In this document: positions 3,318 through 60,905 of the stretch, piece after piece
Layout: the number at the start of each line of letters is the position of its first letter
Numbering within the stretch: position 1 is the first letter of the stretch
Assembly (NCBI RefSeq): GCF_003752365.1
Contig: NZ_RJUO01000005.1
Span: 248,001 to 312,000, forward strand
DNA length: 64,000 bases
Direction: 5' to 3'
Origin: Frondihabitans sp. PhB188
GTDB taxonomy: Bacteria > Actinomycetota > Actinomycetes > Actinomycetales > Microbacteriaceae
Made by a program: the position numbers and the translations under genes
The notes under the pieces: model-generated
The model's database searches: none
What the model was told of the DNA's origin: nothing
Seen by the model: only the letters and a program-made list of their open reading frames with translations

Positions 3318-4283
3318 TCACGCCCCGCCCCTGAGGAGAGCGATCCCCAGGGGGACCACCCCGACCAGCACGAACGCCGGCAGCACGCAGATGCCGAGCG
3401 GCAGCATCAGCCGCACGCCGAGCCGCTCGACGTCCGCGGCTGCCCGAGCGCGAGCCTCGCGCCGCAGCTCGTCGGCGGCACCCCGCAGCAGCGCCGCCCC
3501 CGGCACGCCGGCCCCGACCGACAGCGCCTCGATGTCGTCCAGCGCGGAGGCGGCCGCCAGCACCGAGGCAGCAGGTGCAGCTGACGCAGACCCCGGACAG
3601 AAGGCCTCCAGCGCCGACGCGGCGCAGGCCCGCGCCCTTCCCCACCCGCCGCCGCCCGACAGGCCGATCGCGACGAGGTCGAGCTCGAGCCCCGGGATGC
3701 CGTCGGGCGGGGCCGCGGCCCGGAAGAGCCTGGCGTTCCAGGCCCGGGCGGCGCCGACGAGCAGGCCCGCGCCGACGAGGCAGATCCACCCGGCCGGCGT
3801 GGCGAACAGCACCCGCGGCGCGTCGACACCCATGAGCACGGCGAGCAGCACTCCCACGGCCGGCAGTGCGAGCACGATTCGCGCCGTGACGCGAGGGCCG
3901 GCCGCCGCGACCGACGCCTCCCGCCGCGCCTGGGCGAGGTCGCGGGCGGCTTCGGCGCCGGCGCGGAGCGTGGCCGCCAGGGGTGCTCCGGTGGCCTCGG
4001 CGACGTGCCACGCCGCCGCGACCTGAAGCCACTCGGCGCGGGCGACCGCCTCGGCAGGCGCGCTCGCGACCGCCCGGGCGAGAGCCGACGCCCCGGAGCC
4101 TCCCGCGGCGGTCGCCTCGGCGGTGGCGGCCAGCATGCGGAGTTCCTGCGCCCCTCTCGCCCTGTCGGCCAGATGGCGCCACGCGACCGCGGGAGCCACG
4201 CCCGCCTCGAGCAGAGCGGCCAGCCGAGACATCGCCGGGCCGGCCGACAGGGCCTCGGGCGCAGGAACTCGGCGCCACCTCAC
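3318..4283 (-). CDS. fused TadB/TadC-like inner-membrane platform protein (T2SS F family)
   Basis: A 321-residue protein. An N-terminal helical T2SSF-like half (LLEAGVAPAVAWRHLADRA) is followed by two membrane segments (RIVLALPAVGVLLAVLMGV and ICLVGAGLLVGAARAW). A second helical half (LELDLVAIGLSGGGGWGRA) ends in a C-terminal membrane segment (LMLPLGICVLPAFVLVGVV). Mycobacterial loci encode TadB and TadC separately; here both modules seem to be one reduced polypeptide. The start is GTG at 4283, overlapping the tadA stop by four bases, with GAGAGGAGG just upstream. It would anchor the TadA ATPase and drive pilin polymerisation. The gene holds two copies of the 14-mer GGGCGCAGGAACTC. Confidence 0.8.
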   Translation of the reverse strand: MRWRRVPAPEALSAGPAMSRLAALLEAGVAPAVAWRHLADRARGAQELRMLAATAEATAAGGSGASALARAVASAPAEAVARAEWLQVAAAWHVAEATGAPLAATLRAGAEAARDLAQARREASVAAAGPRVTARIVLALPAVGVLLAVLMGVDAPRVLFATPAGWICLVGAGLLVGAARAWNARLFRAAAPPDGIPGLELDLVAIGLSGGGGWGRARACAASALEAFCPGSASAAPAASVLAAASALDDIEALSVGAGVPGAALLRGAADELRREARARAAADVERLGVRLMLPLGICVLPAFVLVGVVPLGIALLRGGA

Positions 4284-5365
4284 CGATCCCTCCTCTCGCG
4301 CCGCGCCACCAGCCGTCCGCGCCCGTCGAGCTCGAGCGTCGCCGTGGCCTCGACCCGCCGCCCCTCGGCCGTCGCGGCGACGTGCACGACGACGTCGAAG
4401 GCCTCGACCGCCTGCCGTGCCAGGGCCTCGGGGTCGAGGCCCGCGAGCGCCCCGAGCGACTCGAGTCGGGCGGCGACCGCCTCCACCCCGCTGGCGTGGA
4501 GGGTTCCGGCGCCGCCGTCGTGCCCGGTCGTGAGGGCCGACAGCATCTCGCGCAGCTCGGCTCCGCGGCACTCCCCCACGATCAGGCGGTCGGGCCGCAT
4601 GCGCAGGGCCTCGCGGACGAGCTGAGCGAGGTCGATGCGCCCGGCCCCCTCGACGTTCGCCTGGCGGGCCTCCAGCGAGACGACGTGCGAATGCGCGATC
4701 CGGAGCTCCGCCACATCTTCGATCGTGACCAGCCGGTCGGTCGGCGGCGCCTGGGCGAGCAGCGCGCCGAGCAGGGTCGTCTTGCCGCTGCCGGTGGCCC
4801 CCGTGATCAGCAGATTCGACCGCCTCCGCACATGGTCGGCCAGCTCGGCGCGCGGCACGATGTCGAAGAAGCCGCCGCGCTCGAGGTCGTCGAGGCCGAG
4901 CCGCGCCGTCGCCGGGACGCGGATCGAGAGCAGGGCGCCGCCGGGCGACACGGGCGGCAGGACGGCGTGGACCCGGATACCGTCGGCGAGTCGGACGTCG
5001 GCGAAGGGCGAGCTGTCGTCGACATGGCGCCCGCCGAGCCCGATCAGCGTGGTGGCGAGGCGCCTCACCTCGGCCGGGTCGAGGTCGGCCGCGCGAACCC
5101 GTGCGGCCCCGGAGTCGCCCGTCGTCCAGACCTCGCCGCCGGCATTCACGAAGACGTCGGTGACACCCTCGGCAGCCACCAGCGGGGTCAGCGCACCGAA
5201 CTGACGGGGTACAGCACGACGTACCCCGAACCGTACCCCGATCTGATCGGTCGTCCCCCGAAGCACGGAGGCCGCATCGGCGGGTGAGGGCACGAATCGA
5301 ACGGGTGACCCGTCACTCGTCGAGGGTGCGGGATCGTCAGGGGATCGGGGCTGTGCGCTGGCCAT
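4280..5365 (-). CDS. tadA: TadA/CpaF secretion ATPase
   Basis: The cytoplasmic hexameric ATPase that powers Tad pilus assembly, 361 residues. It shows Walker A ITGATGSGKTTLL at ~185-197, the Asp-box ATIEDVAELRI-like segment (VTIEDVAELRI), Walker B region DRLIVGECRG, and the His box TLHASG. These are the marks of type II/IV secretion ATPases of the CpaF branch. The N-terminal ~60 residues are variable. It is the first gene of the Tad block. A TadZ/Ssd-like localisation factor, commonly found upstream in relatives, is missing here; acsA lies divergently instead. Confidence 0.92.
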   Translation of the reverse strand: MASAQPRSPDDPAPSTSDGSPVRFVPSPADAASVLRGTTDQIGVRFGVRRAVPRQFGALTPLVAAEGVTDVFVNAGGEVWTTGDSGAARVRAADLDPAEVRRLATTLIGLGGRHVDDSSPFADVRLADGIRVHAVLPPVSPGGALLSIRVPATARLGLDDLERGGFFDIVPRAELADHVRRRSNLLITGATGSGKTTLLGALLAQAPPTDRLVTIEDVAELRIAHSHVVSLEARQANVEGAGRIDLAQLVREALRMRPDRLIVGECRGAELREMLSALTTGHDGGAGTLHASGVEAVAARLESLGALAGLDPEALARQAVEAFDVVVHVAATAEGRRVEATATLELDGRGRLVARRERRDR

Positions 5366-5540
5366 AGCCGACCGTAGGTCGGCGGAGCGGCCACGGCGGC
5401 GTCATCCCCAGGCGCCACCGCGAATCCGCGGGGATCTCGGGCCTGTGGAGAGGAAGACGGCTGAGTGGTCGTCCAGCCAATTCGCCGACATCCGGAGACG
5501 ACCGAGCAGGACGCCGAACGGGTGAGGGACGAAAACCATC

Positions 5541-5588
5541 GGGTTAAAAAGAGAGGGGCGGCACCAGTTGGGGGGAACGGGTGCCGCC
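5541..5588 (-). terminator. hairpin with T-run, minus orientation
   Basis: GGCGGCACC at 5557-5565 pairs perfectly with GGTGCCGCC at 5580-5588, leaving a 14-base loop. Read on the minus strand the stem is followed within six bases by TTTTT. It would stop transcription running toward tadA, for instance antisense reads from the acsA side. No gene lies just upstream on that strand, so a regulatory hairpin is an alternative. Confidence 0.4.
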
Positions 5589-5626
5589 ACGGCAGCGCGC
5601 GATTGGGGGGAATCGGTAGCGCCGCC
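5567..5626 (+). repeat. two imperfect direct repeats, TTGGGGGGAA then CGG and GCCGCC
   Basis: The motif TTGGGGGGAA occurs at 5568-5577 and again at 5603-5612, exactly 35 bases apart. Each copy is followed by CGG and a GCCGCC tail. Two spaced copies upstream of acsA look like binding sites for a regulator on one DNA face, but no known operator was recognised. Confidence 0.5.
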
Positions 5627-5822
5627 AGCCGGAACGAATCCGACTGCATTGAGTGTACCCCAAACCGTCCTGCACGCAAGCGACATTCTCGACCGCCGTC
5701 CGCCCGGCACGGCGACCGCTTTCCGCGCGCCCCGGCGAGGTCGCAACTGAACGCATCCAGAGCCGGAGTAGCGTCATCCGGAGCACGCCGATCAGACCTC
5801 GCAATGATGCGAAAGGACGCCC

Positions 5823-7784
<1,962 letters not shown>

Positions 7785-8521: not shown

Positions 8522-11107
8522 ATGTCTGCCCAAAAAAAGAGGCCCACGTCTGTCGTCGGAGCCGTGTTCGGCTTCGTCGGTTTCAGCGCCCTCGCCGGCC
8601 TCCTCGTCACCATCGGAGTGACGCCGGCCCTCGCGGTCTCGAGCGTGACGGCGTCGTCGTCGATCGGGATCTTCGAAAGCCTCCCCGAGTACATCTCCAT
8701 CGGCCAGCTGCAGCAGCGCAACACGCTGTACGGCGAGTCCGGCGGCAAGCAGGTGCCGTTCGCGACCATCTACTCGCAGAACCGCGTCAACCTCAAGTGG
8801 GATGAAGTGTCGCCGAACCTGAAGCACGCGGTCGTCGCCGGCGAGGACAAGCGCTTCTACCAGCACGGCGGCGTCGACCTCACCAGCATCGTGCGCGCGG
8901 GCGTCGGCTCGCTCAGCGGCGGACTCGGCGAGTCGGGCGGTGGCTCGACCCTGACGATGCAGCTCGTCCGCAACATCCGTCTCGCCCAGGCGCAGGACAT
9001 CAAGGACCCCAAGAAGCAGGCCGCCGCCATCAAGGACGCCAAAGAGGTTACCGTCTCGCGCAAGCTCCAGGAGATGAAGTACGCGATCGGGCTCGAGAAG
9101 AAGTACTCCAAAGACGAGATCCTCCTCGCCTACCTGAACATCGCCTACTTCGGCGATCAGACGTACGGCGTTCAGGCCGCGGCTCAGCACTACTACAACA
9201 AGAGCGCCAAGAGCCTGACGCCGACGCAGGCGGCCAGCCTGATCGCGATCGTGCAGTACCCCGAGAGCCGCGATCTGTCGACGCCGAAGAACTACAAGAA
9301 CAACGTCGCGCGCCGCAACGTGATCCTGAAGGCCATGGAGGCCCAGGGCTACATCACGGCCGACACGCTCAAGCGCGGCCTCGAGACCAAGGTCGGCGAC
9401 TCGGTCAAGCTGACGCCGGCCGTCCAGGGGTGCGCCGCGGTCACCGCCGGCGGCGCCCAGCAGTTCTGCGACTACGTCACCTCCCCCGAGATGATCAAGT
9501 CGTACGCGTTCCTCGGCGGCTCGGACGCCGCCCGCACCAAGAACTGGAACACCGGCGGCTACAAGGTCCACACGACGATCAACCTCGATCTGACGGCGAA
9601 CGCCAAGGGCCAGATCGACCAGTGGGCCCCCGCCACGTTCTCGCAGTTCCCGCTCGGCGGCGTCGTCGACTCGGTCGAGCCGGGCACCGGCCGCGTGGTC
9701 GTCATGACCCAGAACAAGAACCTCACGACCGACGCCAGCGCCTCGCTGACGGGCCCCAACACCTACCTGAACTACTCGGTCGACACGAAGTACGGGTCGT
9801 CGCAGGGCTTCCAGGTCGGATCCACGTACAAGATGTTCACGCTGCTCGACTGGCTCGAGAAGGGGCACGGCGTCAACGAGCTCGTCGACGCCACTCCGCG
9901 CACGTTCCCGACGATGACCGTCGACGGCGGAACCTACTCGACCGTCGACGGCGAGTTCCCGCAGGGCTACAAGCCGAAGAACGACGAGGGCTACATCTCC
10001 GGCTACATGACGGTCAAGACCGCCACGGCCGCCTCGGTCAACGTCGCGTACGCCAGCATGGCGCAGCAGCTCGACCTCGCCGACATCCGCGACGTCGCCC
10101 AGAAGCTCGGCGTGCACACGGCCACCGGCGCCGAGCTGAAAGACAACACGTCGTCGTTCCTCGGCACGAACAACATCGCACCGCTCACGATGGCCACCGC
10201 GTACGCGGCCATCGCCAACAAGGGCGTCTACTGCCCGTCGATCGTCGTCGACAAGGTGACGACGCCCGACGGCAAGTCGGTCGCCGGCCAGAAGAGCGAC
10301 TGCCAGCAGGTCGTCGACCCCGACGTCGCAGCCACCGCCATCTCGGCGATGCAGGGCGTCTTCCAGGGCGGCGGCACGGCCTCGGGTGCACTCCCCGACG
10401 CCACCCCCGAGTTCGGCAAGACGGGCACCACCGACGACGCCGACCAGATCTGGCTGAACGGCTCGACCACGGCTCTGACCACGGTCACCTGGATGGGCGA
10501 CACATCCGGCCAGCGCCACAGCCTGCGCCAGTACTCCAGCCCGGTCTACGGCCAGGGCACGCTGGCGACGAGCCGAAGCGGCCTCTTCAAGGCCGTCCAG
10601 GGTCTCAACAACACCGTCTACCCGGGCACGGCCTTCCCGATTCCGTCGGGCAACCTCGCGACCGGCAACGGCGTCAAGGTGCCCGCTCTGACGGGAAACA
10701 GCGTCGACGCGGCGAAGAACCTCCTGAGCGGCGTCGGCCTGAACTACGTCGACGGCGGCACCCAGGCGTCGAGCCAGCCCGAGGGCCAGGTCGCAGGAAC
10801 GAGCCCGGGCGAAGGCAGCCTCGTGCCGAACGGCGGCAACGTCACCGTCTACACCAGCGACGGATCTCAGGCGGCCACCGTGCCCGAGCTCAGCGGCAAG
10901 AGCCTGAAGGACGCCCTCGGCGACCTCGAGGACGCCGGGTTCGACACCTCCAAGGTGACCACCGGGTTCGCCAAGAGCGACGACGACCAGAAGTGCGACG
11001 TCGTGTCGTCGAACCCCGGCGACGGCGCCTCAGCCGCGAAGGACTCCGCGATCGCACTGACCGTGGGCGGCGGCAAGAGCGGCAGAGACCCCGGGAACTG
11101 CTCGTGA
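8522..11107 (+). CDS. class A penicillin-binding protein with PASTA domains
   Basis: A bifunctional peptidoglycan glycosyltransferase/transpeptidase, 861 residues, with one N-terminal membrane anchor (FGFVGFSALAGLLVTIGVTP). The GT51 domain shows EDKRFYQHGG at ~107 and GGSTLTMQLVRN at ~141. The transpeptidase domain shows the SxxK serine in GSTYKM at ~433, SVN at ~505 and KTGTTDD at ~633. Two PASTA repeats follow (VPALTGNSVDAAKNLL and VPELSGKSLKDALGDL), likely sensing muropeptide or cross-link state. A mid-length frame start further upstream exists, but the ATG at 8522 begins the usual short cytoplasmic tail. It overlaps the next gene by four bases. Confidence 0.95.
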   Translation: MSAQKKRPTSVVGAVFGFVGFSALAGLLVTIGVTPALAVSSVTASSSIGIFESLPEYISIGQLQQRNTLYGESGGKQVPFATIYSQNRVNLKWDEVSPNLKHAVVAGEDKRFYQHGGVDLTSIVRAGVGSLSGGLGESGGGSTLTMQLVRNIRLAQAQDIKDPKKQAAAIKDAKEVTVSRKLQEMKYAIGLEKKYSKDEILLAYLNIAYFGDQTYGVQAAAQHYYNKSAKSLTPTQAASLIAIVQYPESRDLSTPKNYKNNVARRNVILKAMEAQGYITADTLKRGLETKVGDSVKLTPAVQGCAAVTAGGAQQFCDYVTSPEMIKSYAFLGGSDAARTKNWNTGGYKVHTTINLDLTANAKGQIDQWAPATFSQFPLGGVVDSVEPGTGRVVVMTQNKNLTTDASASLTGPNTYLNYSVDTKYGSSQGFQVGSTYKMFTLLDWLEKGHGVNELVDATPRTFPTMTVDGGTYSTVDGEFPQGYKPKNDEGYISGYMTVKTATAASVNVAYASMAQQLDLADIRDVAQKLGVHTATGAELKDNTSSFLGTNNIAPLTMATAYAAIANKGVYCPSIVVDKVTTPDGKSVAGQKSDCQQVVDPDVAATAISAMQGVFQGGGTASGALPDATPEFGKTGTTDDADQIWLNGSTTALTTVTWMGDTSGQRHSLRQYSSPVYGQGTLATSRSGLFKAVQGLNNTVYPGTAFPIPSGNLATGNGVKVPALTGNSVDAAKNLLSGVGLNYVDGGTQASSQPEGQVAGTSPGEGSLVPNGGNVTVYTSDGSQAATVPELSGKSLKDALGDLEDAGFDTSKVTTGFAKSDDDQKCDVVSSNPGDGASAAKDSAIALTVGGGKSGRDPGNCS

Positions 11108-12574: not shown

Positions 12575-14605
12575 TTGCCTGCACGCCGCCGCCCCGCCAC
12601 TCTGCTCGCCGTCCTCTGCGCGGGGGCCGTGGCGCTGGGCGCGATCGGCGCGGGGACGCCGGGCCCGGCGGCGTACGCCGCGACGACGGCGACCCCGACG
12701 CACACGGTCGACCTGTCGAACGACGAAGTGACCGTTCCGGCAGTTCCTGCGTCCCGTCTGAGCACGCCCAGGTCGACGACGCACAGCACCACGGACAGCA
12801 CCAGCACCGGTGTCACCGTCGAGACCGTCTACGTCAGCCGACTCGCGGTGACCACCTCGACCAAGGACGACACGAACGGCGACGACGAGGTCGACGACGC
12901 CACCATCAAGGCGGCCGTGGCGTCGATGCACGACTACTGGTGGGAGCAGTCGTCGCACACCGTCGACATCCAGCTCGGCGGCATCGAGGACGACTCGCTC
13001 GGCCTCTCGACGTGCTCCGACCCGGGCGCCGCCCTCGACGGCGTCGCGAAGACCGCGTTCAAGGGCGCCTTCGCGAACTACAGCTGGCAGGGCACGCACA
13101 AGCACCTGATCGCCCTCAGCAAGGAGGCGTGCGGAACGCAGGCATTCGGCACGGTCGGCGGCCTCGGCGGCGAGATCTTCAGCGGCAACGGCGGCGATCA
13201 GACGTACGGGGTTCCTGTGCTGCTGCACGAGTTCGGCCACAACCTCGGCTTCAAGCACTCGGGTTCGGCGATCTGCCGATCCTCGACGGAGTTCGACGGC
13301 CTCGGCAGCGACTTCGCCTACGCCGACGAGAAGAACGACTCGGTGCTCTGCCCGGTGCTCGAGTACGGCGACTACTCCGACATCATGGGCTACTCGCTCA
13401 AGGGCGCCCGGCCCGGGCTCTCGAGCGTCCAGCGCTCGCTCGCGGGCTATCTCTCCGACGTGGAGGCCGACGACACCGCCGGCAGCACGCAGACCTTCAC
13501 GGTGGCTCCGCTCAGCGGCTCGTCCGGCAGCCGGTCGCTGCAGGTCACCGACCCCGTGACCGGCGCCGTCTACTACGTCGAGTACCGCACGAAGGCGGGC
13601 GGCGACTCGACCGACGCCGAGTTCGGCGGCTACCTGCAGAACTGCGACAAGGCCTACGGCGGATACACGAAGTGCTCGCTCGGCAGCAGCGCGTCGACCG
13701 GCATCGTGCGGATCATGCGGACCCTCGACGGGTCGGCCCAGTCGGGCACGTACCCGGCGACGTTCGTCCTCGCCACCTCGCCCGACACCGCGAGCGACCC
13801 GAGCAGGCGCGACACGCGCCTCTACGCCGGCCAGAGCTTCACCGACTACGGCTCCGGCGTCACCATCGCCGTGAAGTCGCTGACGCCCGCGTCGGGTGCT
13901 GTCGTGACCGTCAGCATCGCGGCGCCGGAGATGCCGGGCGACGAGCCGGCTCCGGCAGACAAGACCTCCGCCCCCTCGGGCAGGCCGGGAGTCGCCGGCG
14001 TCGCGACCACGACGACACTGGCACTGAACCGCGCCTCGCAGACGTACGGGTCGACCACGACGGCGACGGCCACCGCGGCCGCGACGCTCGCAGACGGCAG
14101 CGGTGACGCCGCCCATGGCGCAGTGACCTTCTCCCGCAACGGCAGGACCGTGTCGACCGTGGCCCTCGACGCCTACGGACGCGCCTCGTACCGCCTCCCC
14201 TCGACCACTTCCGCCGGCACCCAGAAGGTGACCGCCTCGTTCACGCCTGCCGACGCCAGTGCGGAGACGTCGTCGAGCTCGGGATCGACGACCGTCACGG
14301 TGAAGAAGGCCGCGCCCAGCGTGCGATCGAGCCTGGCCGCGACGAAGGTCAGCCGCTCGACGACGCCGAAGCTGACGGTCGCCGTCTCCGCGACCGGTGT
14401 CTCCGCGCCGACCGGCACGCTCACCGTGAAGGCAGGCGGCAAGACGATCAAGACCTACACGCTGCCGTCGTCGAAGAAGGGACGGGTGATCCTGACCCTG
14501 CCGAAGTTCGCGAAAACCGGCCGCTACTCGATCAAGGCGTCGTACGCGGGCACGTCGAACATCTCGTCCGGGACGGCGAAAAGCCTGGTCCTGACCGTGA
14601 AGTGA
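12575..14605 (+). CDS. secreted zinc metalloprotease (M11/gametolysin-like) with C-terminal Ig-like repeats
   Basis: A 676-residue exported protein. The signal peptide is Arg-rich, then ATLLAVLCAGAVALGA, with likely cleavage after AYA (~38). The zinc motif HEFGHNLGFKH (HExxHxxGxxH) lies at ~217 with a Met-turn SDIMGYS near 268, placing it among metzincins of the gametolysin-like type. The C-terminal third has two bacterial Ig-like modules (TTTLALNRASQTYGSTTTAT and VRSSLAATKVSRSTTPKLTV) ending in SLVLTVK, suiting wall or polymer binding. The TTG start at 12575 was preferred because it begins a normal signal peptide and follows GAAAGAG; the frame is open 44 codons upstream. The substrate is unknown. 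Confidence 0.85.
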   Translation: MPARRRPATLLAVLCAGAVALGAIGAGTPGPAAYAATTATPTHTVDLSNDEVTVPAVPASRLSTPRSTTHSTTDSTSTGVTVETVYVSRLAVTTSTKDDTNGDDEVDDATIKAAVASMHDYWWEQSSHTVDIQLGGIEDDSLGLSTCSDPGAALDGVAKTAFKGAFANYSWQGTHKHLIALSKEACGTQAFGTVGGLGGEIFSGNGGDQTYGVPVLLHEFGHNLGFKHSGSAICRSSTEFDGLGSDFAYADEKNDSVLCPVLEYGDYSDIMGYSLKGARPGLSSVQRSLAGYLSDVEADDTAGSTQTFTVAPLSGSSGSRSLQVTDPVTGAVYYVEYRTKAGGDSTDAEFGGYLQNCDKAYGGYTKCSLGSSASTGIVRIMRTLDGSAQSGTYPATFVLATSPDTASDPSRRDTRLYAGQSFTDYGSGVTIAVKSLTPASGAVVTVSIAAPEMPGDEPAPADKTSAPSGRPGVAGVATTTTLALNRASQTYGSTTTATATAAATLADGSGDAAHGAVTFSRNGRTVSTVALDAYGRASYRLPSTTSAGTQKVTASFTPADASAETSSSSGSTTVTVKKAAPSVRSSLAATKVSRSTTPKLTVAVSATGVSAPTGTLTVKAGGKTIKTYTLPSSKKGRVILTLPKFAKTGRYSIKASYAGTSNISSGTAKSLVLTVK

Positions 14606-14690: not shown

Positions 14691-15899
14691 GTGACCGACA
14701 CGACGACGACCGCTCCGCGGGCCGGCTGGTACGCCGATCCGAGCGCGGCCGCGGCCTACCGCTGGTGGGACGGCGCGCAGTGGACCGCCCAGACCCTGGA
14801 CGCCGCACCGACCGCCTCGGCCCCGACCCCCGCTCCCGCATCGACCCCGGCGTCGGCCGAGGTCGAGGAGCACGCGGCCGCCGAACGGGAAGCGGCAGAG
14901 CGCGCCGCCGCGCAGCGCGCCACCACCCAGCCGCGCCCGCAGTCGCCTGCCCTCCCCAGCCGTCGCAGCCTCCGCAACCTCCCCTCGGTCGCCGTGGGCA
15001 CTCCCCCGGCCGGGTCCGTCGAGCCGACGGTCGCCGCACCGGCCGCCGCCGCATCATCGCCCTACGTGCCGCTGAACCCGCTGGCCACCACCGCCACACC
15101 TCCCGCGTCGCCGAGCGACGGCTGGCACACGCCGGCCGCGTGGATCGCCAACGCGCCGGCCTCGCCGGAGCACGCCGTGTACGGCACGGGATCCCCTTTC
15201 GGAGCCTCCCGCCCCGGCGCCTTCACCCTCCAGCCCCGCAACAAGCCCGCGCGCCTCGCGCTGACGTTCATGCTGATCACGCTGATCACCGACGGCGTGT
15301 CGATAGCACTCACGACTCAGCGACTGCTCACCTCCCCCATCGCAGTCCTGGCGCAGCTGGGAGTCGGCGTCGTGGTGATCGGCCTCGTCATCGCAGCCGT
15401 CCCGCTGTCGATCGTGGGTCTCGTCCGTGCTTCGCAGATGAAGTCCTCCGGACTCACCCCGGTCGGCCGGCCCCACGCGGTAGCGGCCCTCATCCTCGCG
15501 CTGCTCTTCCTGGCGCTGTTCGGCCTGGCCCTCTCGGTGGGCGTCCTCGCCGGTCTGGAGCGCGCCGGGTCGCACACCACGACCTCGAGCACGACGGGCG
15601 CAGGAACGAGCACCTCCGCCATCGCCCACAGCGCCACCGGGGCCCCCACCCCGGTCATCGGCACGCCCCAGGCCGACGGAACCCTCCTCTACTCGCAGGC
15701 CCAGGCTCAGGCGGCGCTCACGGCCGCAATCAAGGGCGACACGAGTATCGCCGCCACGGTCGGATGCCCGGCCACCGTCGCCCTCTCGGTGGGAGCGTCG
15801 TTCGAGTGCCGTGTCACGCTGCCGGGCGGCAGCGCCACGGCGCACGTGAGCGTGCTCGACTCCACGGGGCGCTCCGAGATCCAGATCAGCACCCCGTAG
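14691..15899 (+). CDS. DUF2510/DUF4333-type membrane protein
   Basis: A 402-residue protein of unknown function. Residues ~10-35 form a DUF2510 module (GWYADPS...YRWWDGAQWT). A Pro/Ala-rich linker follows, then three membrane segments (LALTFMLITLITDGVSIAL, VGVVVIGLVIAAVPLSIVGL, ALILALLFLALFGLALSVGV), as in DUF4190-like proteins. The C-terminal ~80 residues carry a DUF4333-like domain with two conserved cysteines (VGCPATVALSVGASFECRV), probably outside the cell. The start is GTG with GGGGGATC ahead. Such modular proteins are common in Actinobacteria, often near envelope genes. Confidence 0.85.
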   Translation: MTDTTTTAPRAGWYADPSAAAAYRWWDGAQWTAQTLDAAPTASAPTPAPASTPASAEVEEHAAAEREAAERAAAQRATTQPRPQSPALPSRRSLRNLPSVAVGTPPAGSVEPTVAAPAAAASSPYVPLNPLATTATPPASPSDGWHTPAAWIANAPASPEHAVYGTGSPFGASRPGAFTLQPRNKPARLALTFMLITLITDGVSIALTTQRLLTSPIAVLAQLGVGVVVIGLVIAAVPLSIVGLVRASQMKSSGLTPVGRPHAVAALILALLFLALFGLALSVGVLAGLERAGSHTTTSSTTGAGTSTSAIAHSATGAPTPVIGTPQADGTLLYSQAQAQAALTAAIKGDTSIAATVGCPATVALSVGASFECRVTLPGGSATAHVSVLDSTGRSEIQISTP

Positions 15900-21455: not shown

Positions 21456-23828
<2,373 letters not shown>

Positions 23829-42558: not shown

Positions 42559-42611
42559 GTGGGGTGCTTTCTGTTGAAGAGAGGGGGTGCAGGAACGGAG
42601 GCGGCCGCGGC

Positions 42612-45022: not shown

Positions 45023-45436
45023 ATGGATTCGCCGGCCAGCGCACGGGTGGACGTCTGGTTGTGGGCGGTCCGTCTCTACAAGACCCGGTCGGCCGCCACG
45101 TCGGCCTGCCGAGCGGGTCACGTGCGCGTCAACGGCGAGCGCGTGAAGGCAGCTCACGCGATCCGCGTGGGCGACGAGGTCCGCAGCCGGTTGGAGGGAT
45201 TCGACCGGATCGTGAAGGTCAAGGGCATCCTGCTGAAGCGCGTCGGGGCCCCGATCGCCGCGGAGGCCGTGATCGATCTGACTCCGCCGCCGCCTCCGCG
45301 AGCCGAGCTCGCCTACCTGCCCGTCCGCGACCGGGGTGCCGGGCGGCCGACGAAGCGCGATCGGCGGGAGATCGATCGGCTTCGGGGCCAGTTCCTGGGC
45401 GATGAGATCGTCTGGGAGGACGACCCCGACGCCTGA
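45023..45436 (+). CDS. S4-domain RNA-binding protein (Hsp15-like)
   Basis: A 137-residue basic protein. The S4 domain lies at ~8-70 (RVDVWLWAVRLYKTRSAATS; GHVRVNGERVKAAHAIRVGD), followed by a charged tail (GRPTKRDRREIDRL). Hsp15 binds free 50S subunits with blocked nascent chains and helps recycle them; actinobacterial members are assumed to act likewise. ATG follows CGGAGG at a good distance. It is divergent from tRNA-Ser. Confidence 0.93.
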   Translation: MDSPASARVDVWLWAVRLYKTRSAATSACRAGHVRVNGERVKAAHAIRVGDEVRSRLEGFDRIVKVKGILLKRVGAPIAAEAVIDLTPPPPPRAELAYLPVRDRGAGRPTKRDRREIDRLRGQFLGDEIVWEDDPDA

Positions 45437-46360: not shown

Positions 46361-48343
46361 TCAGCGTCGCCGCAGTGTCCCGAAGATCCCCTTGACGACC
46401 TCGCCCATGATCTTCTGACTGCTCTTCGATCCGAGCAGCTCCCCCAGCAGGTCCGTCGACTGCTGGGCTCTCGGGCGCGCCCGGCTGCCCGTCGTCGACT
46501 TCGCGCGCCGCGCCCGGTCGGCCTTCTCGAACTCGCGCTGCTGCCGCTCGTACTCGGCCTGCGCCTTGGCCCGCTCCCGCTCGGCGCGCGCGGCCTCCGT
46601 CGCGGCGGCCTTGGCGGTCGCGGCCTGCTCCTTCGCGGCTGACGCGGCCGCGGCCGCGGCGGCCTTCGCAGTCGCCGCGTCGGCGACCGCCTTCGCCTCG
46701 GCGTCGGCGCGGGCGGCAGCCGCGACGGCTGCCCCCTCGAGCTTCGCCGTCAGGATCTCGCGGGCCGACTCGCGGTCGATGGCCGTGCCGTACTTCGCGA
46801 TGAGCGGGCTGGCCGCGACGGCCGCCTCCATGTCGGGCGTCGGCGTGGGCGACATCGAGCCGCGGGGTGCCCGCAGGCGGGTCCAGGCGACCGGCGACGG
46901 CGCACCCTTCTCGTTCATGACCGTGACGACGGCCTCGCCGGTGGCCAGCGTGGTGAGCACCGCGCCCAGGTCGTAGCCGCTCGACGGATAGGTCGACACG
47001 GTGGCCTTCAGCGCTTTGGCGTCGTCGGGCGTGAAGGCGCGGAGCTGGTGCTGCACGCGCGAGCCGAGCTGGGCCAGCACCTCCGACGGGACGTCCTTCG
47101 GCGTCTGCGTCACGAACACGATGCCGACGCCCTTCGACCTGATGAGGCGGACGGTCTGCGTGATCTGCGCGAGGAAGTCCTTCGATGCGTCCTTGAACAG
47201 CAGGTGGGCCTCGTCGAAGAAGAACACCAGCTTCGGCTTCTCGAGGTCGCCGACCTCGGGCAGGTCGTTGTACAGGTCGGCGAGCATCCACATCAGGAAC
47301 GTCGAGAACAGCGCCGGCTGAGTCGCGACCCCGGGCAGCTCGAGCAGGCTGACGATGCCGCGTCCGTCCGGAGCGAGTCGCAGAAACTCGGCCGTGTCGA
47401 TCTCGGACTCCCCGAAGAACAGGTCGGCGCCCTGGTCGGCGAACGTGATCAGCTCGCGCAGGATCACCCCGACCGTCTGCGAGCTCAGCCCGCCGAGGTC
47501 GGTGAGCTCGGCCTTGCCGTCGTCGCTGATCAGGTACGTGAGCACGCTTCTCAGGTCGGAGAGGTCGAGGAGTGGAAGCCCCGCCTTCTCGGCGTAGTGG
47601 AAGACCAGCCCGAGGCTCGACTCCTGGGTGTCGTTCAGGCCGAGGACCTTGCTGAGCAGCAGGGGCCCGAAGCCTGAGACCGTCGCGCGCACGGGCACGC
47701 CGATCCCTTTGCCGCCGAGGGCGAAGTACTCCGTCGGCGCCGCCAGCGGAGACCAGTCCTGGCCGATGCCCCTCGTGCGGTCGAGCAGCTTCTCTGACGA
47801 CTCCCCCGGGCTCGCGATGCCCGACAGGTCGCCCTTCACGTCGGCAGCGAAGACCGGCACGCCGGCGGCCGACAGCTGCTCCGCCAGCACCTGCAGGGTC
47901 TTCGTCTTGCCAGTGCCGGTGGCTCCGGCGACGAGACCGTGACGGTTCATCATCGCCAGCGGGATGCGCACCGGCACGTCGGCCCGGGCATCCCCGTTGA
48001 CGAGGGCGCCCATCTCGAGCGCGGCTCCGGAGAACGCGTAGCCGGCGCGGATGGCGTCGACGTCGGTCTCTCCCAGAGGTCCTGGTGTCGCGATCGCGGG
48101 CGCAGGAACTTCCGACCCCGCTGCCGGAGCCGCCGCCGCGGGGGCCGTTGCCGCCTGCGCCGCCGCCTCGCCCGCCGCCTGAGCGTCGGCCGCCGTCTGC
48201 GCCTGCGCCGTCGCTGCCGCCGCGGCCTGAGCCGCGAGTTCCTGCGCCTTGGCCATCGCGGCCTCTGCCTCGGCCTGCGCCTTCGCGGCGGCGGCGACGA
48301 GCGCCTCGGCGTTCTGACGGGCGGTCTCCACTGCGTCGCTCAT
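46361..48343 (-). CDS. HerA-like ATPase/helicase (DUF853)
   Basis: A 660-residue P-loop ATPase of the FtsK/HerA superfamily. An Ala-rich, probably coiled N-terminal region (~1-75) precedes Walker A GLVAGATGTGKTKTLQ (~137-152), an arginine-rich core and Walker B KLVFFFDEAHLLF (~350). The Ala/Arg/Glu-rich C-terminal region (~530-640) again looks like a coiled coil. DUF853 proteins are widespread and presumed to move or unwind nucleic acid, but their cellular role is undefined. The PAP2 gene lies 65 bases upstream on the same strand. Two GCAGGAAC motifs fall in the N-terminal region. Confidence 0.9.
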   Translation of the reverse strand: MSDAVETARQNAEALVAAAAKAQAEAEAAMAKAQELAAQAAAAATAQAQTAADAQAAGEAAAQAATAPAAAAPAAGSEVPAPAIATPGPLGETDVDAIRAGYAFSGAALEMGALVNGDARADVPVRIPLAMMNRHGLVAGATGTGKTKTLQVLAEQLSAAGVPVFAADVKGDLSGIASPGESSEKLLDRTRGIGQDWSPLAAPTEYFALGGKGIGVPVRATVSGFGPLLLSKVLGLNDTQESSLGLVFHYAEKAGLPLLDLSDLRSVLTYLISDDGKAELTDLGGLSSQTVGVILRELITFADQGADLFFGESEIDTAEFLRLAPDGRGIVSLLELPGVATQPALFSTFLMWMLADLYNDLPEVGDLEKPKLVFFFDEAHLLFKDASKDFLAQITQTVRLIRSKGVGIVFVTQTPKDVPSEVLAQLGSRVQHQLRAFTPDDAKALKATVSTYPSSGYDLGAVLTTLATGEAVVTVMNEKGAPSPVAWTRLRAPRGSMSPTPTPDMEAAVAASPLIAKYGTAIDRESAREILTAKLEGAAVAAAARADAEAKAVADAATAKAAAAAAASAAKEQAATAKAAATEAARAERERAKAQAEYERQQREFEKADRARRAKSTTGSRARPRAQQSTDLLGELLGSKSSQKIMGEVVKGIFGTLRRR

Positions 48344-49153: not shown

Positions 49154-50383
49154 TCAGTGCCCCAGCGGCGGCACCGTCCGCGGCCGCACCAGGATCCACA
49201 GGCTCAGGATCGCCACGGCGCTCGTGCACGCCATGACGGCGCCCATCGGAGCTGCGGTCGAGATGCCAATGACTCCGACGATGGGCGAGATGAGGCCGGC
49301 GAGCCCGAAGTTGAGGGCGCCGAGGAGGGAGGCGGCAGTTCCTGCCTCTTTGCCGTGGTTCGCCAGAGCGAGCACCTGCACCTGCGGGAAGGAGAAGCCG
49401 CACGACGCGATGAAGATCCACAGGGGCACGAGCACGCCGAGCAGGCCGACCTGGAGGGTGTCGAGAATGACGATAGTGAGGGCGGCGACCAGCATGGTGG
49501 CGGTGGAGCACGCGAGGATCCACTGCGGCCCGAAGCGCTGGGCCAGGCGCGCACTGATCTGCACGCCGACCACGATGCCGAGCGAGTTGACGGCGAACAG
49601 CAGGCCGTACTCCTGCGCCGAGAATCCGTACAGCGACTGGAACAGGAACGACGACGACGAGAGGTACGCGAACAGCCCCGAGAAGATCATGGCGCCCATG
49701 AGCGCGACGCCGACGAAGATGCGGTCGTGGAAGAGGATCCGGTACCGCTGCCGGAGCGTCGAGTGCCCCTGCTCGGCGCGGCGCTCCTTCGGCAGGGTCT
49801 CGACGATGAAGAAGACCGCCGCCACCACCACGAGCACCCCGTAGGCCGCGAGCACCGCGAAGATGCCGCGCCAGCTCGTGAAGCGCAGCAGCTGCGAGCC
49901 GATCACCGGCGCGAGGATCGGCGCCAGGCCGTTCACCAGTGCCAGGCGCGACAGCATGCGCACCAGCGGCTTGCCGCCGAAGAGGTCGCGCACCAGGGCC
50001 ATGGCGACGACACCGCCCGCCGCCGCTCCCATCCCCTGCAGAACCCGGAAGAGGCCCAGGAACTCGATGTTCGCCGCCGTGGCCGCCCCCACGCTCGCGC
50101 ACACGTGGAGCGAGCTCGCCACGATCAGGGGCAGCCGCCGCCCGACCTTGTCGCTCCACGGCCCGACCAGCAGCTGCCCGAGGCCGAACCCGATGGTCGT
50201 CGCAGTCAGCGTGAGCTGGACCGTCGCCGTCGTCACGCTGAAGTCGGACTCCAGCGCCGGAAACGCGGGCAGGTAGAGGTCGATCGTCGCCGGCCCCAGC
50301 GCCGTGAGGGCGCCGAGCACGACGATGTAGACCAGGCGCTGTCGCCGGGAGAGGGCGTCTCCCGGGTGCACGACGATTGTCAC
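49154..50383 (-). CDS. Bcr/CflA-type MFS multidrug efflux protein
   Basis: A 409-residue, 12-segment major facilitator. N-terminal LTALGPATIDLYLPAFPAL and the motif A region VGPWSDKVGRRLPL are typical of the Bcr/CflA drug:H+ antiporter branch. GTG at 50383 was chosen because AAAGGAG lies directly upstream; the frame continues 18 codons further without membrane-protein character. It is divergent from a TetR-type gene with a perfect 14-bp palindrome between them, the classic arrangement of a pump and its repressor. The substrate is unknown. Confidence 0.92.
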   Translation of the reverse strand: MTIVVHPGDALSRRQRLVYIVVLGALTALGPATIDLYLPAFPALESDFSVTTATVQLTLTATTIGFGLGQLLVGPWSDKVGRRLPLIVASSLHVCASVGAATAANIEFLGLFRVLQGMGAAAGGVVAMALVRDLFGGKPLVRMLSRLALVNGLAPILAPVIGSQLLRFTSWRGIFAVLAAYGVLVVVAAVFFIVETLPKERRAEQGHSTLRQRYRILFHDRIFVGVALMGAMIFSGLFAYLSSSSFLFQSLYGFSAQEYGLLFAVNSLGIVVGVQISARLAQRFGPQWILACSTATMLVAALTIVILDTLQVGLLGVLVPLWIFIASCGFSFPQVQVLALANHGKEAGTAASLLGALNFGLAGLISPIVGVIGISTAAPMGAVMACTSAVAILSLWILVRPRTVPPLGH

Positions 50384-54277: not shown

Positions 54278-54314
54278 AGGGGTACCTCGGGGTTCGGTCG
54301 AGCAGGAACAGGGA

Positions 54315-57946: not shown

Positions 57947-59563
57947 ATGCAGCAGAGGTATTCCGTGAACTCCCGAAACGATACGACCGGCGAACCCGAA
58001 AACTCGACGGCGCTGCAACTCGACGGCCGCAACGCGCTCGACACGATCGAGACAATGTGGCCCCAGATCGCGCCCATCCAGGGTGCCCGGCTTCGCGACG
58101 CCATCCGCAGCATCCCCGAGAAGGAGTGGAGCGACCGCGCCCGCATCCTGCTCGCTCTCGCGGCCAGCTACCGCTCCATCGGCTCGACGTCCCGGAGTGC
58201 CGCGCTGCCCTGGTTCCGCGCCGTCGACAAGAGCATCAGGGCCGATCCGGGCAGTCCGCTCGACGTCCGCGTCGGCTACCTGATCCACTTCGCGGCTACC
58301 ATGCGCACGATGGGCGACATCGAGCGCTCCCGTGAGAACCTCGAGACGGCGCGCACCATGATCGAGAGCGACGAGTCGCTCGACATCAGCCGCCGCATCG
58401 ACCTGAGCGCCTCCTTCTCACTGCAGCTGGGCCTCGCGCGCATCCACACCGGCGCCTTCGACGAGGCCCTGTTCGCGCTGTCGCTGGCCGAGGGGCTCGC
58501 CAACGAGCACCTGTCGACCGCCGAGCGGGTCGAGTGCCACTCGGCGCTCGCCTACGTGGCGTTCCTGCTCGGCGACTTCGCCCTCGCCGACAGCCAGATC
58601 GACCTCGCCGCCCAGCACGCCGACGGAACCGACCTGCTGCGCTCGTCGTTCGGCGCGCTCGCGCAGGTGACGCGCTTCCACCTCCACATCGAGCGTGAGA
58701 GCGGCTCCGAACCGCACGAGGCGCTGCTCCGCGACCTGCGCATCGCCTGCCGCAACACCGACTGGGAGGCGCACTCGCTGTACGTCGAGGCCCTCTCCCG
58801 CTACGACGACGGCGCCTCGATCGAGGCGCTCGATCTGCTCGGCCGCGTCACACGGCTGCTCGCGCACTTCTCGGGCGCGTCGGCGCTCGATTCGGCGACA
58901 CGGATCCTGCGCTCCGAAGCCCTTCGGTCGCTGGGCGAGGCATCGCAGTCACACGACGCCCTCGCCGACATCCCGGTAGGCCAGCACCACGTCAACTGCC
59001 CCGCCAGCATCACCGCACTCGCCTCGTTGACATTGGGCGACCCGCAGCAGGCGCTGGACGCGCTCGAGTCGTGCCTGGCGCTCGGCGACCTGCACTCGAT
59101 GCGGTCGATGGTGCAGATCCACGCGATCGCCGCGGCCGCGCACGACGACCTCGGCAACGCGGTCGCATCGAGCATCGCCTTCGACCGATCGCTGCTCATG
59201 GCGGCCGTGAACGGCGTCGTCTGGCCGTTCGCCACGCTCCCGTCGGAAGTGCTGGAGCGCTTGCTCGGCCGCGCCGCCGGGCGCGTTCAGCCGGCGATCG
59301 TCGTCGCGATGATGGAGCGCCTCCGCACCGCCCCCTCGACGGACTCCGTCGTGCTCGTCGACCCGCTCAGCGAGCGCGAGCTGGTCATCGTGCGGCACCT
59401 GGCGACCGGCGCGACCCTCAGCCAGATCGGCGCCGAGCTCTTCATCTCGGTGAACACGGTCAAGAGCCACGTCCGCAGCATCTACCGCAAGCTCTCGGCG
59501 ACGAACCGCCGCGAGGCGATCGCGCGCGCCGTGCAGCTGGGCCTCGCCGAGCAGGAGCAGTAG
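57947..59563 (+). CDS. LuxR-type regulator with helical-repeat sensor region
   Basis: A 538-residue regulator. Residues ~50-440 are helical, TPR-like pairs (ILLALAASYRSIGSTSRSAA; LGLARIHTGAFDEALFALSL; ALASLTLGDPQQALDALESC), as in the sensor part of MalT-like proteins but without an N-terminal ATPase. The C-terminal LuxR domain begins PLSERELVIVRHLATGATLS and has FISVNTVKSHVRSIYRKL. The ATG at 57947 or a GTG at 57965 (with AGAGG before it) may start translation. TATGAT at 57807-57812 is a possible -10. The gene ends in a CAGTAG repeat giving four in-frame stops. Confidence 0.88.
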   Translation: MQQRYSVNSRNDTTGEPENSTALQLDGRNALDTIETMWPQIAPIQGARLRDAIRSIPEKEWSDRARILLALAASYRSIGSTSRSAALPWFRAVDKSIRADPGSPLDVRVGYLIHFAATMRTMGDIERSRENLETARTMIESDESLDISRRIDLSASFSLQLGLARIHTGAFDEALFALSLAEGLANEHLSTAERVECHSALAYVAFLLGDFALADSQIDLAAQHADGTDLLRSSFGALAQVTRFHLHIERESGSEPHEALLRDLRIACRNTDWEAHSLYVEALSRYDDGASIEALDLLGRVTRLLAHFSGASALDSATRILRSEALRSLGEASQSHDALADIPVGQHHVNCPASITALASLTLGDPQQALDALESCLALGDLHSMRSMVQIHAIAAAAHDDLGNAVASSIAFDRSLLMAAVNGVVWPFATLPSEVLERLLGRAAGRVQPAIVVAMMERLRTAPSTDSVVLVDPLSERELVIVRHLATGATLSQIGAELFISVNTVKSHVRSIYRKLSATNRREAIARAVQLGLAEQEQ

Positions 59564-59645: not shown

Positions 59646-59662
59646 TGTCAGCAGTGGTGAGA

Positions 59663-60103: not shown

Positions 60104-60619
60104 TTACGCGGCGTCCTCCTGCTTGGCGCGCAGAGCCTCGACCGTGCGAACGGTCTTCGACAGCGGAGCCTGGAACAGGTAGGCCGCACCGAACAGCGAA
60201 GCCTTGAAGGCGCCGGCCAGCTTGCCCAGCAGCACCTCCCGCGACTCGAGATCGGCGAGCTGGTTGACCTCGGCTGCGCTCAGAGGGTTACCGTCGAAGT
60301 AACCGCCCTTCACGATCAGCTCGGGGTTCGCCTTGGCGAAGTCACGCAGGCTCTTGGCCACGGCGACAGGGTCTCCGTGGACGAAAGCGATCGCGGACGG
60401 GCCGACGAGTTCCTCGTCGAACGACGAGATCCCCGCAGCGTTCGCCGCGATCTTGGTGAGCGTGTTCTTCACGACGGCGTAGGTGGCGTCCTCACGGATA
60501 CCGGTGCGCAGCGCTTTGAGCTGAGCAACGGTGAGGCCGCGGTACTCGGTGAGCAGGACGGCGGTCGAGCTACGGAACGACTCCGTGAGCTCGGCGACCG
60601 AAGCTTCCTTGTTCGCCAT
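60104..60619 (-). CDS. rplJ: 50S ribosomal protein L10
   Basis: Anchors L7/L12 dimers to the ribosome and normally represses its own operon. It has 171 residues: [20 protein letters not shown] at the start, [15 protein letters not shown] (~24) and [15 protein letters not shown] (~49). The ATG at 60619 follows TTAGGAG. A leader of about 190 bases with a hairpin terminator precedes it (separate entries). Confidence 0.98.
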
Positions 60620-60682
60620 GTCGCTCCTAACGTGTGAAAGCTGGCAGCCCCTCGTGACTCTCTCGAGTCCAGTGCTCACACG

Positions 60683-60713
60683 AAAAAAGCTCCGCGCAGA
60701 ATGCACGGAGCTT
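60683..60713 (-). terminator. attenuator hairpin in the rplJ-rplL leader
   Basis: AAGCTCCG pairs with CGGAGCTT, with a small inner GCA/TGC helix, and the stem runs into TTTTTT on the minus strand. It lies within the rplJ leader, between the likely promoter and the L10 start. Premature termination controlled by L10 binding to the upstream leader is the natural reading, as known for L10 leaders elsewhere. Confidence 0.8.
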
Positions 60714-60815
60714 GAGCTTCGAACACCTGCGCGGGACGTCTCTCGGGAGAGAACCTTCGGCCAGCGCTTGCTCTTTCGAGCGGGCACCGACAACCAGCGG
60801 TCTTGGGCTTCGTTC

Positions 60816-60845
60816 ACTATAGGCGACCGGCCCGAGTTCCTGCAA
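60816..60845 (-). promoter_or_regulatory. rplJ-rplL promoter
   Basis: TATAGT (60816-60821) with TTGCAG (60840-60845) 18 bases upstream forms a good sigma-A-type promoter on the minus strand. Transcription would begin near 60809. The -35 overlaps one arm of the large inverted repeat built from the GCAGGAAC motif. Confidence 0.6.
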
Positions 60846-60905
60846 CTCCCGCCGAAGACGCCGGGCATCGGTCACAGGCAGTGTCTGCAGGAACTCGGGG
60901 CGGTC
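60825..60905 (-). repeat. 20-bp inverted repeat made of two GCAGGAACTCGGG copies
   Basis: Arms 60825-60844 and 60886-60905 are complementary at 19 of 20 positions and enclose 41 bases. The hairpin begins directly after the histidine kinase stop codon and may terminate that transcript. Each arm carries the over-represented octamer GCAGGAAC in opposite orientation. Confidence 0.85.

Follow-up and report, generated by a model that had tools for sequence, protein, structure and literature searches.

The octamer CAGGAACT is strongly over-represented throughout the 3.79-Mb genome of a Frondihabitans species (Microbacteriaceae) and is probably the dialect used by that species of a self tag that resembles DNA-uptake sequences and occurs across the family. 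Genome-wide, 1,121 copies of CAGGAACT were counted (565 plus, 556 minus), compared with 134 (64 plus, 70 minus) of the reversed word used as a control. The corresponding counts were 646 (320 plus, 326 minus) versus 4 (3 plus, 1 minus) for GCAGGAACTC and 188 (96 plus, 92 minus) versus 0 (0 plus, 0 minus) for the 14-mer GGGCGCAGGAACTC, which confirmed that the over-representation is real and genome-wide. A preliminary description of this DNA had likened the word most closely to DNA-uptake sequences, while also allowing for a repair, nucleoid-protein or methylation motif. The uptake-sequence reading is favoured here, short of proof, because of the genome-wide counts, the strand balance, the codon tests and the dialects in relatives.

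The word was originally noticed in a single 64-kb stretch of DNA, hereafter called the window, in the form GCAGGAAC. Of the 22 copies first reported there, 21 had exact coordinates, one given at 29818 lies at 29817, and a plus-strand copy at 41970 had been overlooked, so the true number is 23 (13 plus, 10 minus). Compared with the two or so copies originally expected, an order-2 Markov model gave 1.8, and simulating the window 100 times with an order-1 Markov model gave a mean of 1.76 (maximum 5). All six exact 14-mers were found where they had been placed. The better core is CAGGAACT, not GCAGGAAC as first proposed, and has 20 copies in the window versus 0.5 expected. The copies are listed below, after a Tad-pilus type locus.

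2710-5179, minus strand: Tad-pilus type genes (TadE-like, DUF4244, T2SSF (TadB-like), T2SSE (TadA-like))
4140-4153, minus strand: 14-mer GGGCGCAGGAACTC, core 4141-4148, in the TadB-like gene (3318-4232)
4257-4270, plus strand: 14-mer GGGCGCAGGAACTC, core 4262-4269, in the intergenic gap that separates the TadB-like from the TadA-like gene, opposite in orientation to the copy at 4140
7650-7657, plus strand: core CAGGAACT, within an acetyl-CoA synthetase-like gene (5823-7784)
10793-10800, plus strand: GCAGGAAC variant without the final T, within a penicillin-binding-protein gene (8564-11107)
12742-12749, minus strand: core CAGGAACT
15600-15607, plus strand: GCAGGAAC variant without the final T
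16256-16263, minus strand: core CAGGAACT
20577-20584, plus strand: core CAGGAACT; in three aligned congeners, GAGGAACT (G003) and AAGGAACT (G004 and G005)
21755-21762, plus strand: core CAGGAACT without the preceding G, not listed previously
25132-25139, plus strand: GCAGGAAC variant without the final T
28670-28683, plus strand: 14-mer GGGCGCAGGAACTC, core 28675-28682
29419-29432, plus strand: 14-mer GGGCGCAGGAACTC, core 29424-29431
29815-29828, minus strand: 14-mer GGGCGCAGGAACTC, core 29816-29823
32268-32275, minus strand: core CAGGAACT
39034-39047, minus strand: 14-mer GGGCGCAGGAACTC, core 39035-39042
41971-41978, plus strand: core CAGGAACT, corresponding to the overlooked GCAGGAAC copy at 41970
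42589-42596, plus strand: GCAGGAAC variant without the final T, intergenic
45390-45397, minus strand: core CAGGAACT without the preceding G, not listed previously
48103-48110, plus strand: core CAGGAACT
48237-48244, minus strand: core CAGGAACT
49337-49344, minus strand: core CAGGAACT
50057-50064, plus strand: core CAGGAACT without the preceding G, not listed previously
54302-54309, plus strand: GCAGGAAC variant without the final T, intergenic
58561-58568, minus strand: GCAGGAAC variant without the final T
60835-60842, minus strand: core CAGGAACT, intergenic, inverted partner of 60888
60888-60895, plus strand: core CAGGAACT, intergenic, inverted partner of 60835

When 844 kb of the genome's high-GC stretches were scanned for the 41,520 octamers expected three or more times, CAGGAACT and its reverse complement had the highest ratio of observed to expected counts (296 versus 7.6, or 39-fold). 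The enrichment dropped to 2.0-fold for words with one mismatch; three unrelated control words gave 0.9-1.6. The intergenic copies yielded the consensus GGGCG-CAGGAACT-(C/G)(C/G), and the five positions before the core were occupied by G, G, G, C and G in 71, 76, 77, 85 and 97 per cent of 62 intergenic sites, the preference being weaker within genes. Past about -5 and +9 the flanks of the 296 copies were close to background composition. The word differs from its own reverse complement and is thus not palindromic.

Both strands were used equally, with 147 plus and 149 minus copies in 40 sampled stretches and no regional heterogeneity among these stretches (chi2 25.8, 39 df, p 0.95), in agreement with the earlier rejection of a strand-polar motif. 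An apparent genome-wide polarity, in which only plus-strand sites seemed to lie past 138 kb on contig 1, was ruled out when the sampled stretches were found to have sites on both strands. KOPS guide FtsK and are polar towards dif; no regional strand bias of that kind was seen over the 40 stretches, a comparison made independently of the position of dif. Sites were spaced more evenly than random (CV 0.83 versus 0.95, with a proportion of 0.001 of 2,000 simulations equally low), and gaps shorter than 300 bp were fewer than expected (20 versus 28.5). Neighbouring pairs less than 200 bp apart numbered 16 among 263 gaps, and 13 of the 16 were inverted. Inverted pairs such as the one first noted after a gene therefore exist but are not the rule, and terminator-like pairs are not frequent. 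Such pairs at terminators are common in Neisseria and are not essential to uptake sequences.

Site density was about 2.5 times higher in intergenic than in coding DNA (0.74 versus 0.30 per kb; 62 of 296 sites intergenic), a division that rests on gene calls from a simple gene finder. Fifteen low-GC or short stretches carried 17 octamers versus 88 expected at the high-GC rate, a five-fold depletion. Uptake sequences would be scarce in recently acquired DNA, for which low GC is here no more than a stand-in, and the cut-off of 67% was set after the stretches had been viewed. Relative to their own Markov expectation, these stretches were enriched 3.5-fold, compared with 39-fold in the high-GC set.

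The preliminary description was correct that most copies lie within genes, but its statement that they occupy different reading frames required correction. In the sample, 163 of 228 intragenic sites (71%) fell in two frames of common amino acids, nAG-TTC-CTG (99 sites, n mostly G) and CAG-GAA-CTn (64 sites), with 65 in other frames. This bias could point to an origin in protein motifs or in codon context. However, the normally rare GAA codon was used in 64 of 78 Gln-Glu-Leu tripeptides, compared with 1-8% in seven other X-Glu-Leu tripeptides, and both Glu-Phe-Leu (83 versus 38.7 expected) and Gln-Glu-Leu (78 versus 39.5) were in excess. Because of this overuse of GAA and this excess, the codon tests show that selection acts on the DNA itself, and they indicate that the two main frames are tolerated rather than the cause of the enrichment. 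The sites with the strongest flanks are moreover intergenic, and the octamer is near control level in six congeners. An explanation by chance, by codon context or by a protein motif common to the sites is given almost no weight and is already refuted by the codon tests and the intergenic flanks. Just as improbable is an origin as the remnant ends of a mobile element or REP-type repeat that had dispersed. The 14 bp common to 188 copies could suggest such relics, but the flanks fade to background just outside the motif, column frequencies of the 296 copies reveal no longer shared flanks, the majority of copies are intragenic in several frames, and the words of congeners differ and sit elsewhere.

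Comparison with relatives revealed dialects of the word. Among 150 family genomes only this one carries CAGGAACT at such density. In all six congeners the octamer was close to control level, and all six carried other dispersed words containing CAGGA (for example CAGGATGCCC and GCGCAGGATC). The candidates AGACTCCA (G003), AGAGTCCC (G006), and CTACAGTA and ATCCCCTTCG (G005) were rejected as dialects and represent local repeat clusters. Words with GGATGCC/CATCC were present in five of the seven other genera sampled. One dialect word, CGGATGCC, was at least 5-fold over control (up to 39-fold) in 75 of 150 Microbacteriaceae genomes, including 74 of the 127 family genomes of at least 2 Mb, versus 0 of 74 genomes outside the family. 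Curtobacterium gave a weak GCAGGACCTC signal (25 versus 3.4) from 21 loci that are mostly orthologous and therefore non-independent, and no dispersed word was found in 60 kb of genus g58. The half of the family below a ratio of 5 (75/150) may be partly explained by other dialects. In genome G132, which lacks CGGATGCC, 60 kb of sequence contained no other strong word. Outside Frondihabitans it is the sole CGGATGCC-poor genome that was sampled de novo, and the remaining ones may therefore conceal further dialects. Within the genus, the octamer was kept in the congener in only 1 of 69 site-congener pairs (52 sites), and when 426 dialect words of the congeners were aligned with this genome, the octamer stood in register at two of them and within about 6 bp at three. 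Judging from these alignments, the sites of this genome are recent gains.

A mechanism consistent with these observations would begin with a putative receptor for DNA, located on the cell surface or on a pilus that serves uptake, that prefers a duplex of about 13-15 bp, GGGCG-CAGGAACT-SS. Bound DNA would be imported by ComEA and ComEC, and motif-bearing alleles would then be fixed by homologous recombination. Through this biased-uptake 'molecular drive', for which we infer a preferential uptake of word-bearing DNA, copies would build up in both orientations where coding constraint permits. A shift in receptor specificity would cause the genome to be re-seeded, so that each species would have its own dialect built on a common core, which is CAGGA in Frondihabitans and GGATGCC in other genera.

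Several features associated with DUS and USS were found here, namely copy number, no replichore polarity, intergenic preference, dialects with a shared core, and transformation machinery. As described in excerpts of PMC3630211, the DUS dialects of Neisseriaceae are likewise many dispersed short words with an invariant short core and prefer permissive or intergenic DNA. Unlike those, the present words belong to a Gram-positive actinobacterium, are unrelated (core CAGGA or GGATGCC) and form few inverted pairs, and the likeness lies in the genome sequence. The sharp drop in over-representation from the exact word to one mismatch resembles the Pasteurellaceae USS, and the spread of USS and DUS has been explained by mutation, biased uptake and recombination (both from excerpts of PMC1939737). 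The USS differs in word and phylum, and near-complete turnover between congeners was seen here.

The genome encodes ComEA (SLBB + HHH_3) adjoining ComEC, and type IVa pilus genes (PilB, PilT, PilC, pilins, PilD, PilM). ComEC was present in 148 of 150 family genomes, equally in those without CGGATGCC, and therefore does not discriminate between readings. A link between the word and type IVa pili, hinted at by 18 genomes in which the wordless ones lacked PilB/PilT, was reduced to a partial correlation in 150 genomes. The median CGGATGCC ratio was 6.7 with PilT (n=78) and 3.2 without it (n=72), phylogeny not being corrected for, and 24 of the 72 PilT-lacking genomes reached a ratio of 5; by co-occurrence a PilT-type pilus is not required. 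The Tad-type locus at 2710-5179, where the TadE-like match is below the Pfam cut-off, is a possible candidate for a DNA-uptake pilus, as a lead only. In Micrococcus luteus, transformation requires Tad/Flp pili (excerpts of PMC6370729).

Two other functions for the word were considered. It could act as a hotspot of recombination in the manner of Chi, recognised by a helicase-nuclease of the AdnAB type and protecting self DNA at double-strand ends. Like Chi sites as described in part of PMC8022716, it is an over-represented chromosomal octamer, and over-representation with low-GC depletion would fit too. All 37 genomes tested encode PDDEXK_1 proteins. In 36 of them there were at least two matches, usually two long frames side by side at a distance of about 3 kb, which, from domain and adjacency, we infer to be AdnAB. 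RecC was found in 0 of these 37 genomes, which suits an AdnAB-type reader and is a difference from the Chi sites described in that paper. Neither observation separates the readings, and the PDDEXK_1 pair also occurs in wordless genomes, although ComEC does likewise. Leading-strand polarisation serves as a Chi criterion (excerpts of PMC8022716), but none was seen in this genome or in six relatives (strand counts in the relatives of 156/181 before and 104/105 after the contig midpoint, the origin being assumed near the contig start). The flank information spanning 13-15 bp and the differing words among species of one genus also make a Chi function unlikely.

A site for a chromosome-organising, methylating or other DNA-binding protein, as a counterpart of cyanobacterial HIP1, is doubtful to a nearly equal, marginally smaller degree. 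Dispersed, non-polar and evenly spaced copies would suit a structural or methylation mark, and excerpts of PMC4390886 describe HIP1 as a hyperabundant octamer dispersed across a clade, with a possible methyltransferase relation. Unlike the palindromic HIP1, however, the Frondihabitans word is non-palindromic and has species dialects. These dialects and the near-complete turnover would need repeated re-specification of the binding protein, with hundreds of sites rebuilt without drive, and the low-GC depletion is not obviously predicted.

For the uptake-sequence reading, the balance tips slightly towards a broader proposal, that Microbacteriaceae evolved self-DNA tagging for natural transformation independently of Neisseriaceae and Pasteurellaceae, as the first case in Gram-positives. 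Tagging would be widespread in larger genomes, dialects would change even between species of one genus and serve as barriers that isolate them sexually, and about a thousand Frondihabitans sites would have been re-seeded since the split from the sampled congeners. In 2013 the uptake-sequence requirement was called unique to Neisseria and Pasteurellaceae (excerpts of PMC3630211). Among the matches listed in the open-licence PMC literature, preprints excluded, no report was found of an uptake sequence from Gram-positives, and for Microbacteriaceae none of a hyperabundant word, a Chi site or an uptake sequence; the open-licence PMC matches listed likewise included no transformation study in this family. 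The excerpted text of an abundant-oligomer survey (PMC2843746) does not mention Leifsonia, Clavibacter or Tropheryma.

Should the word instead prove to be a Chi site read by AdnAB, that enzyme, which to our knowledge has no settled recognition word, would gain a candidate. If the uptake-sequence reading is true, uptake specificity would not be confined to two Gram-negative families and would have arisen also in Actinobacteria. The dialects would then predict which species exchange DNA, which tag makes a strain transformable, and receptor residues that co-vary with the word. Frondihabitans would provide a natural experiment in which a genome rewrote about a thousand sites after a change in specificity, apparently with amino-acid changes.

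The preliminary description had put the number of GCAGGAAC copies in the window at 22, which was nearly right: the window holds 23 (13 plus, 10 minus; about 1.8 expected), a copy at 41970 having been missed, and none of 100 simulated windows held more than five. The exact 14-mer GGGCGCAGGAACTC occurs six times there, and the underlying core, the octamer CAGGAACT, 20 times against 0.5 expected. The words were then counted across the Frondihabitans sp. PhB188 genome (3.79 Mb in 10 contigs, the window being bases 248001-312000 of contig 5), with the same words spelled backwards as reversed controls. Genome-wide counts were 565 + 556 for CAGGAACT (control 64 + 70), 320 + 326 for GCAGGAACTC (control 3 + 1) and 96 + 92 for GGGCGCAGGAACTC (control 0). 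A sample of this genome, consisting of 54 fetched stretches and the window (1,094,929 bases), was used for finer statistics. Among 41,520 octamers with an expectation of at least 3 under an order-2 Markov model, CAGGAACT with its reverse complement ranked first (296 vs 7.6 in the 40 stretches above 67% GC, 844 kb), and the 12-mer GGCGCAGGAACT was found 108 times against 0.1 expected. The excess of CAGGAACT falls sharply with one mismatch, from 39-fold to 2.0-fold. The remaining 15 stretches, low in GC or short (251 kb; one all N), contained 17 octamers, compared with 88 from the high-GC rate and 4.9 from their own Markov expectation; the 67% cut behind this comparison was chosen after the stretches had been seen. 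Words resembling CGTAGTAG and CTACTACG are also strongly over-represented in PhB188 (9.7-fold), and ACTACTAC, of the same kind, is over-represented in the congener G002 and in G012, a genome from another genus.

Outside about -5 to +9, flank composition approaches background, so the copies of CAGGAACT lack the look of a mobile repeat. The 62 intergenic sites give the consensus GGGCG-CAGGAACT-(C/G)(C/G), the five bases preceding the core being G in 71, G in 76, G in 77, C in 85 and G in 97%; the 234 sites within or overlapping genes have the same flanks, more weakly. Density was 0.74 per kb in intergenic and 0.30 per kb in coding DNA, with six gene-edge sites counted in neither and gene edges approximate, as genes were called with a purpose-written simple codon-usage finder. 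Copies are spaced more evenly than by chance (CV 0.83 vs 0.95; 0.001 of 2,000 simulations as low), and close pairs are scarcer than random (20 gaps below 300 bp vs 28.5). Sixteen neighboring pairs lie within 200 bp, 13 of them inverted.

Selection acts on the DNA and not on protein. The 228 intragenic sites are read as nAG-TTC-CTG (n mostly G) in 99 cases, as CAG-GAA-CTn in 64 and in other frames in 65. In the 700 of 791 called genes that were at least 300 nt long and of good score, Gln-Glu-Leu used GAA in 64 of 78 cases, compared with 1-8% for seven other X-Glu-Leu tripeptides. Glu-Phe-Leu (83 vs 38.7) and Gln-Glu-Leu (78 vs 39.5) were about twice as frequent as dipeptide frequencies predict, and tripeptides of the other frames were at or slightly over expectation, for example Ala-Gly-Thr (217 vs 209.9) and Val-Pro-Ala (187 vs 167.5). 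The codon and tripeptide biases therefore indicate that codons are dictated by the word, as apparently are some amino acids.

Seven genomes of the genus were present in the collection, and 160-180 kb was sampled from each of the six congeners. These carry 21 to 36 copies of GCAGGAACTC per genome vs 646 in PhB188. Each congener sample contains other words, enriched and dispersed, all with CAGGA.

Enriched words in the six Frondihabitans congeners (observed vs expected where noted)
G001: GCGCAGGAGC, CGCAGGATCC
G002: CAGGATGCCG, CAGGATCC
G003: CAGGATGCCC, 30 vs 0.45
G004 (Frondihabitans sp. Leaf304): CGCAGGATCC, GCAGGATCCG
G005 (F. sucicola NBRC 108728): CAGGATCACG, CAGGATCTCG
G006: GCGCAGGATC, 56 vs 1.3

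A four-fold excess of GCAGGATC is kept in PhB188 (201 vs 49.6), perhaps as an ancestral remnant. GGATGCC/CATCC words were found in five of seven other family genera sampled (G007, G008, G009, G011 and G012), including CGGATGCCGC in G007 (47 vs 1.6); the signal of this type was weak in Curtobacterium and absent from the 60 kb sampled of G132, from genus g58. Other repeats in the congeners are local. G003 has two iteron-like clusters of GAGACTCCAC (L060 18634-18859 and L061 8263-8691), which are not dispersed. In G006, 14 AGAGTCCC repeats cluster on a smaller contig (L067 14579-16918); most are CGCGAnnAGAGTCCC, both orientations occur, and the cluster may be a replication or partition locus. F. 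sucicola has eight CTACAGTA repeats on its second contig (L064 4333-19600), four adjoining a GCATATGC palindrome.

The word CGGATGCC was counted against its reversed control in 150 Microbacteriaceae genomes (85 genera). A ratio of 5 or more was seen in 75 genomes and of 10 or more in 39; the maximum was 39 (G160) and the top copy number 4,093 (G153). Strand totals were 71,235 and 71,070. In 74 genomes taken from the order's other families, the median was 1.55 and the maximum 3.76, none reaching 5. Since 16 of these 74 also exceed 2, ratios of 2-4 are no evidence. A ratio of 5 is reached by 74 of the 127 family genomes with 2 Mb or more, and a ratio of 2 by 113; the 23 smaller ones include a single genome that reaches 5 and 11 that fall below 2. 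CGGATGCC was less frequent than its control in two genomes of genus g58 (G063, 43 to 115; G132, 44 to 114), unlike in most family members, and no strong alternative word was found in the 60 kb sampled from G132. CAGGAACT itself stands out only in PhB188 (295 copies per Mb, the runner-up among the 150 having 89); the small genome G010 has a higher ratio from few copies (54 to 4).

Turnover of sites was followed in blastn alignments of PhB188 and congener stretches. In 69 site-congener pairs (52 PhB188 sites), the congener also had the octamer in one and its own dialect word in two. Conversely, at 426 aligned congener words, PhB188 had its octamer in register in two and within about 6 bp in three, and kept the congener's word in 71. 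Ungapped aligned cores were unchanged in 1 of 54 (alignments not de-duplicated), compared with 30% of control windows matched in AT content (32,119). Ascertainment explains part of this gap, since a word gained recently is bound to differ from what relatives carry. Frequent congener states, one or two steps off, were GAGGAACT (5), GCGGAACT (3) and AAGGAACT (3). Ascertainment notwithstanding, the alignments show the PhB188 sites to be recent gains.

Several competence and pilus genes were found. ComEC (PF03772) is present in 148 of the 150 family genomes, and in PhB188 it adjoins a protein of ComEA type, with SLBB and HHH_3 domains. In a single case, G107 (C1 343724-344440), the ComEC match begins late in the model (28-267) within a 574-aa frame, and CGGATGCC is not enriched there (75 to 120). 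PhB188 also carries the following pilus clusters.

L039, a fetched stretch: type IVa pilus cluster with PilB, PilT, PilC, three N-methylation pilins, PilD and PilM
Window 2710-5179, next to topA: Tad-type cluster with TadE-like (match under Pfam's cut-off), DUF4244, T2SSF and T2SSE proteins

An inverted 14-mer pair lies at the TadB-TadA junction of the latter. Its proteins share 53-72% identity with those of two congeners, vs 76-91% for the neighboring TopA, Acs and PBP. Micrococcus luteus, also an actinobacterium, uses Tad/Flp pili in transformation and has ComEA/ComEC (PMC6370729). PilT (TIGR01420) was found in 78 of the 150 genomes, and the median CGGATGCC ratio was 6.7 with it vs 3.2 without (p 5.5e-5, phylogeny ignored). 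As the ratio is at least 5 in 24 of 72 genomes lacking PilT, a PilT-type pilus is not required.

The word could be a Chi site read by AdnAB. In a test of 37 genomes RecC turned up in none and PDDEXK_1 proteins in all; from domain and adjacency the latter are read as putative AdnAB. Polarity is a Chi criterion in PMC8022716, and the PhB188 word is not polar: the 40 stretches contain 147 plus and 149 minus copies and show no heterogeneity between regions (chi2 25.8, 39 df, p 0.95), and the words of the six relatives divide 156/181 and 104/105 by contig half, the origin being taken to lie close to the contig start. A role as a nucleoid or methylation word is also possible, but rapid turnover counts against it because such a word lacks a drive that rebuilds sites.

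Compared with the uptake sequences of Neisseriaceae and Pasteurellaceae (DUS/USS), the PhB188 word shares most features that sequence can reveal. It is abundant and non-polar, sits in permissive DNA, drops steeply at one mismatch, and has dialects with a constant core, and competence genes are present in the same genome; it differs in lacking frequent inverted pairs. The uptake-sequence requirement is called unique to Neisseria and Pasteurellaceae in the neisserial dialect paper (PMC3630211). No prior report in Microbacteriaceae was found among the open-licence PMC papers listed by literature searches. Because preferential uptake, the central property, is putative here, the word is best described as DUS-like and is not filed as a member of DUS/USS.
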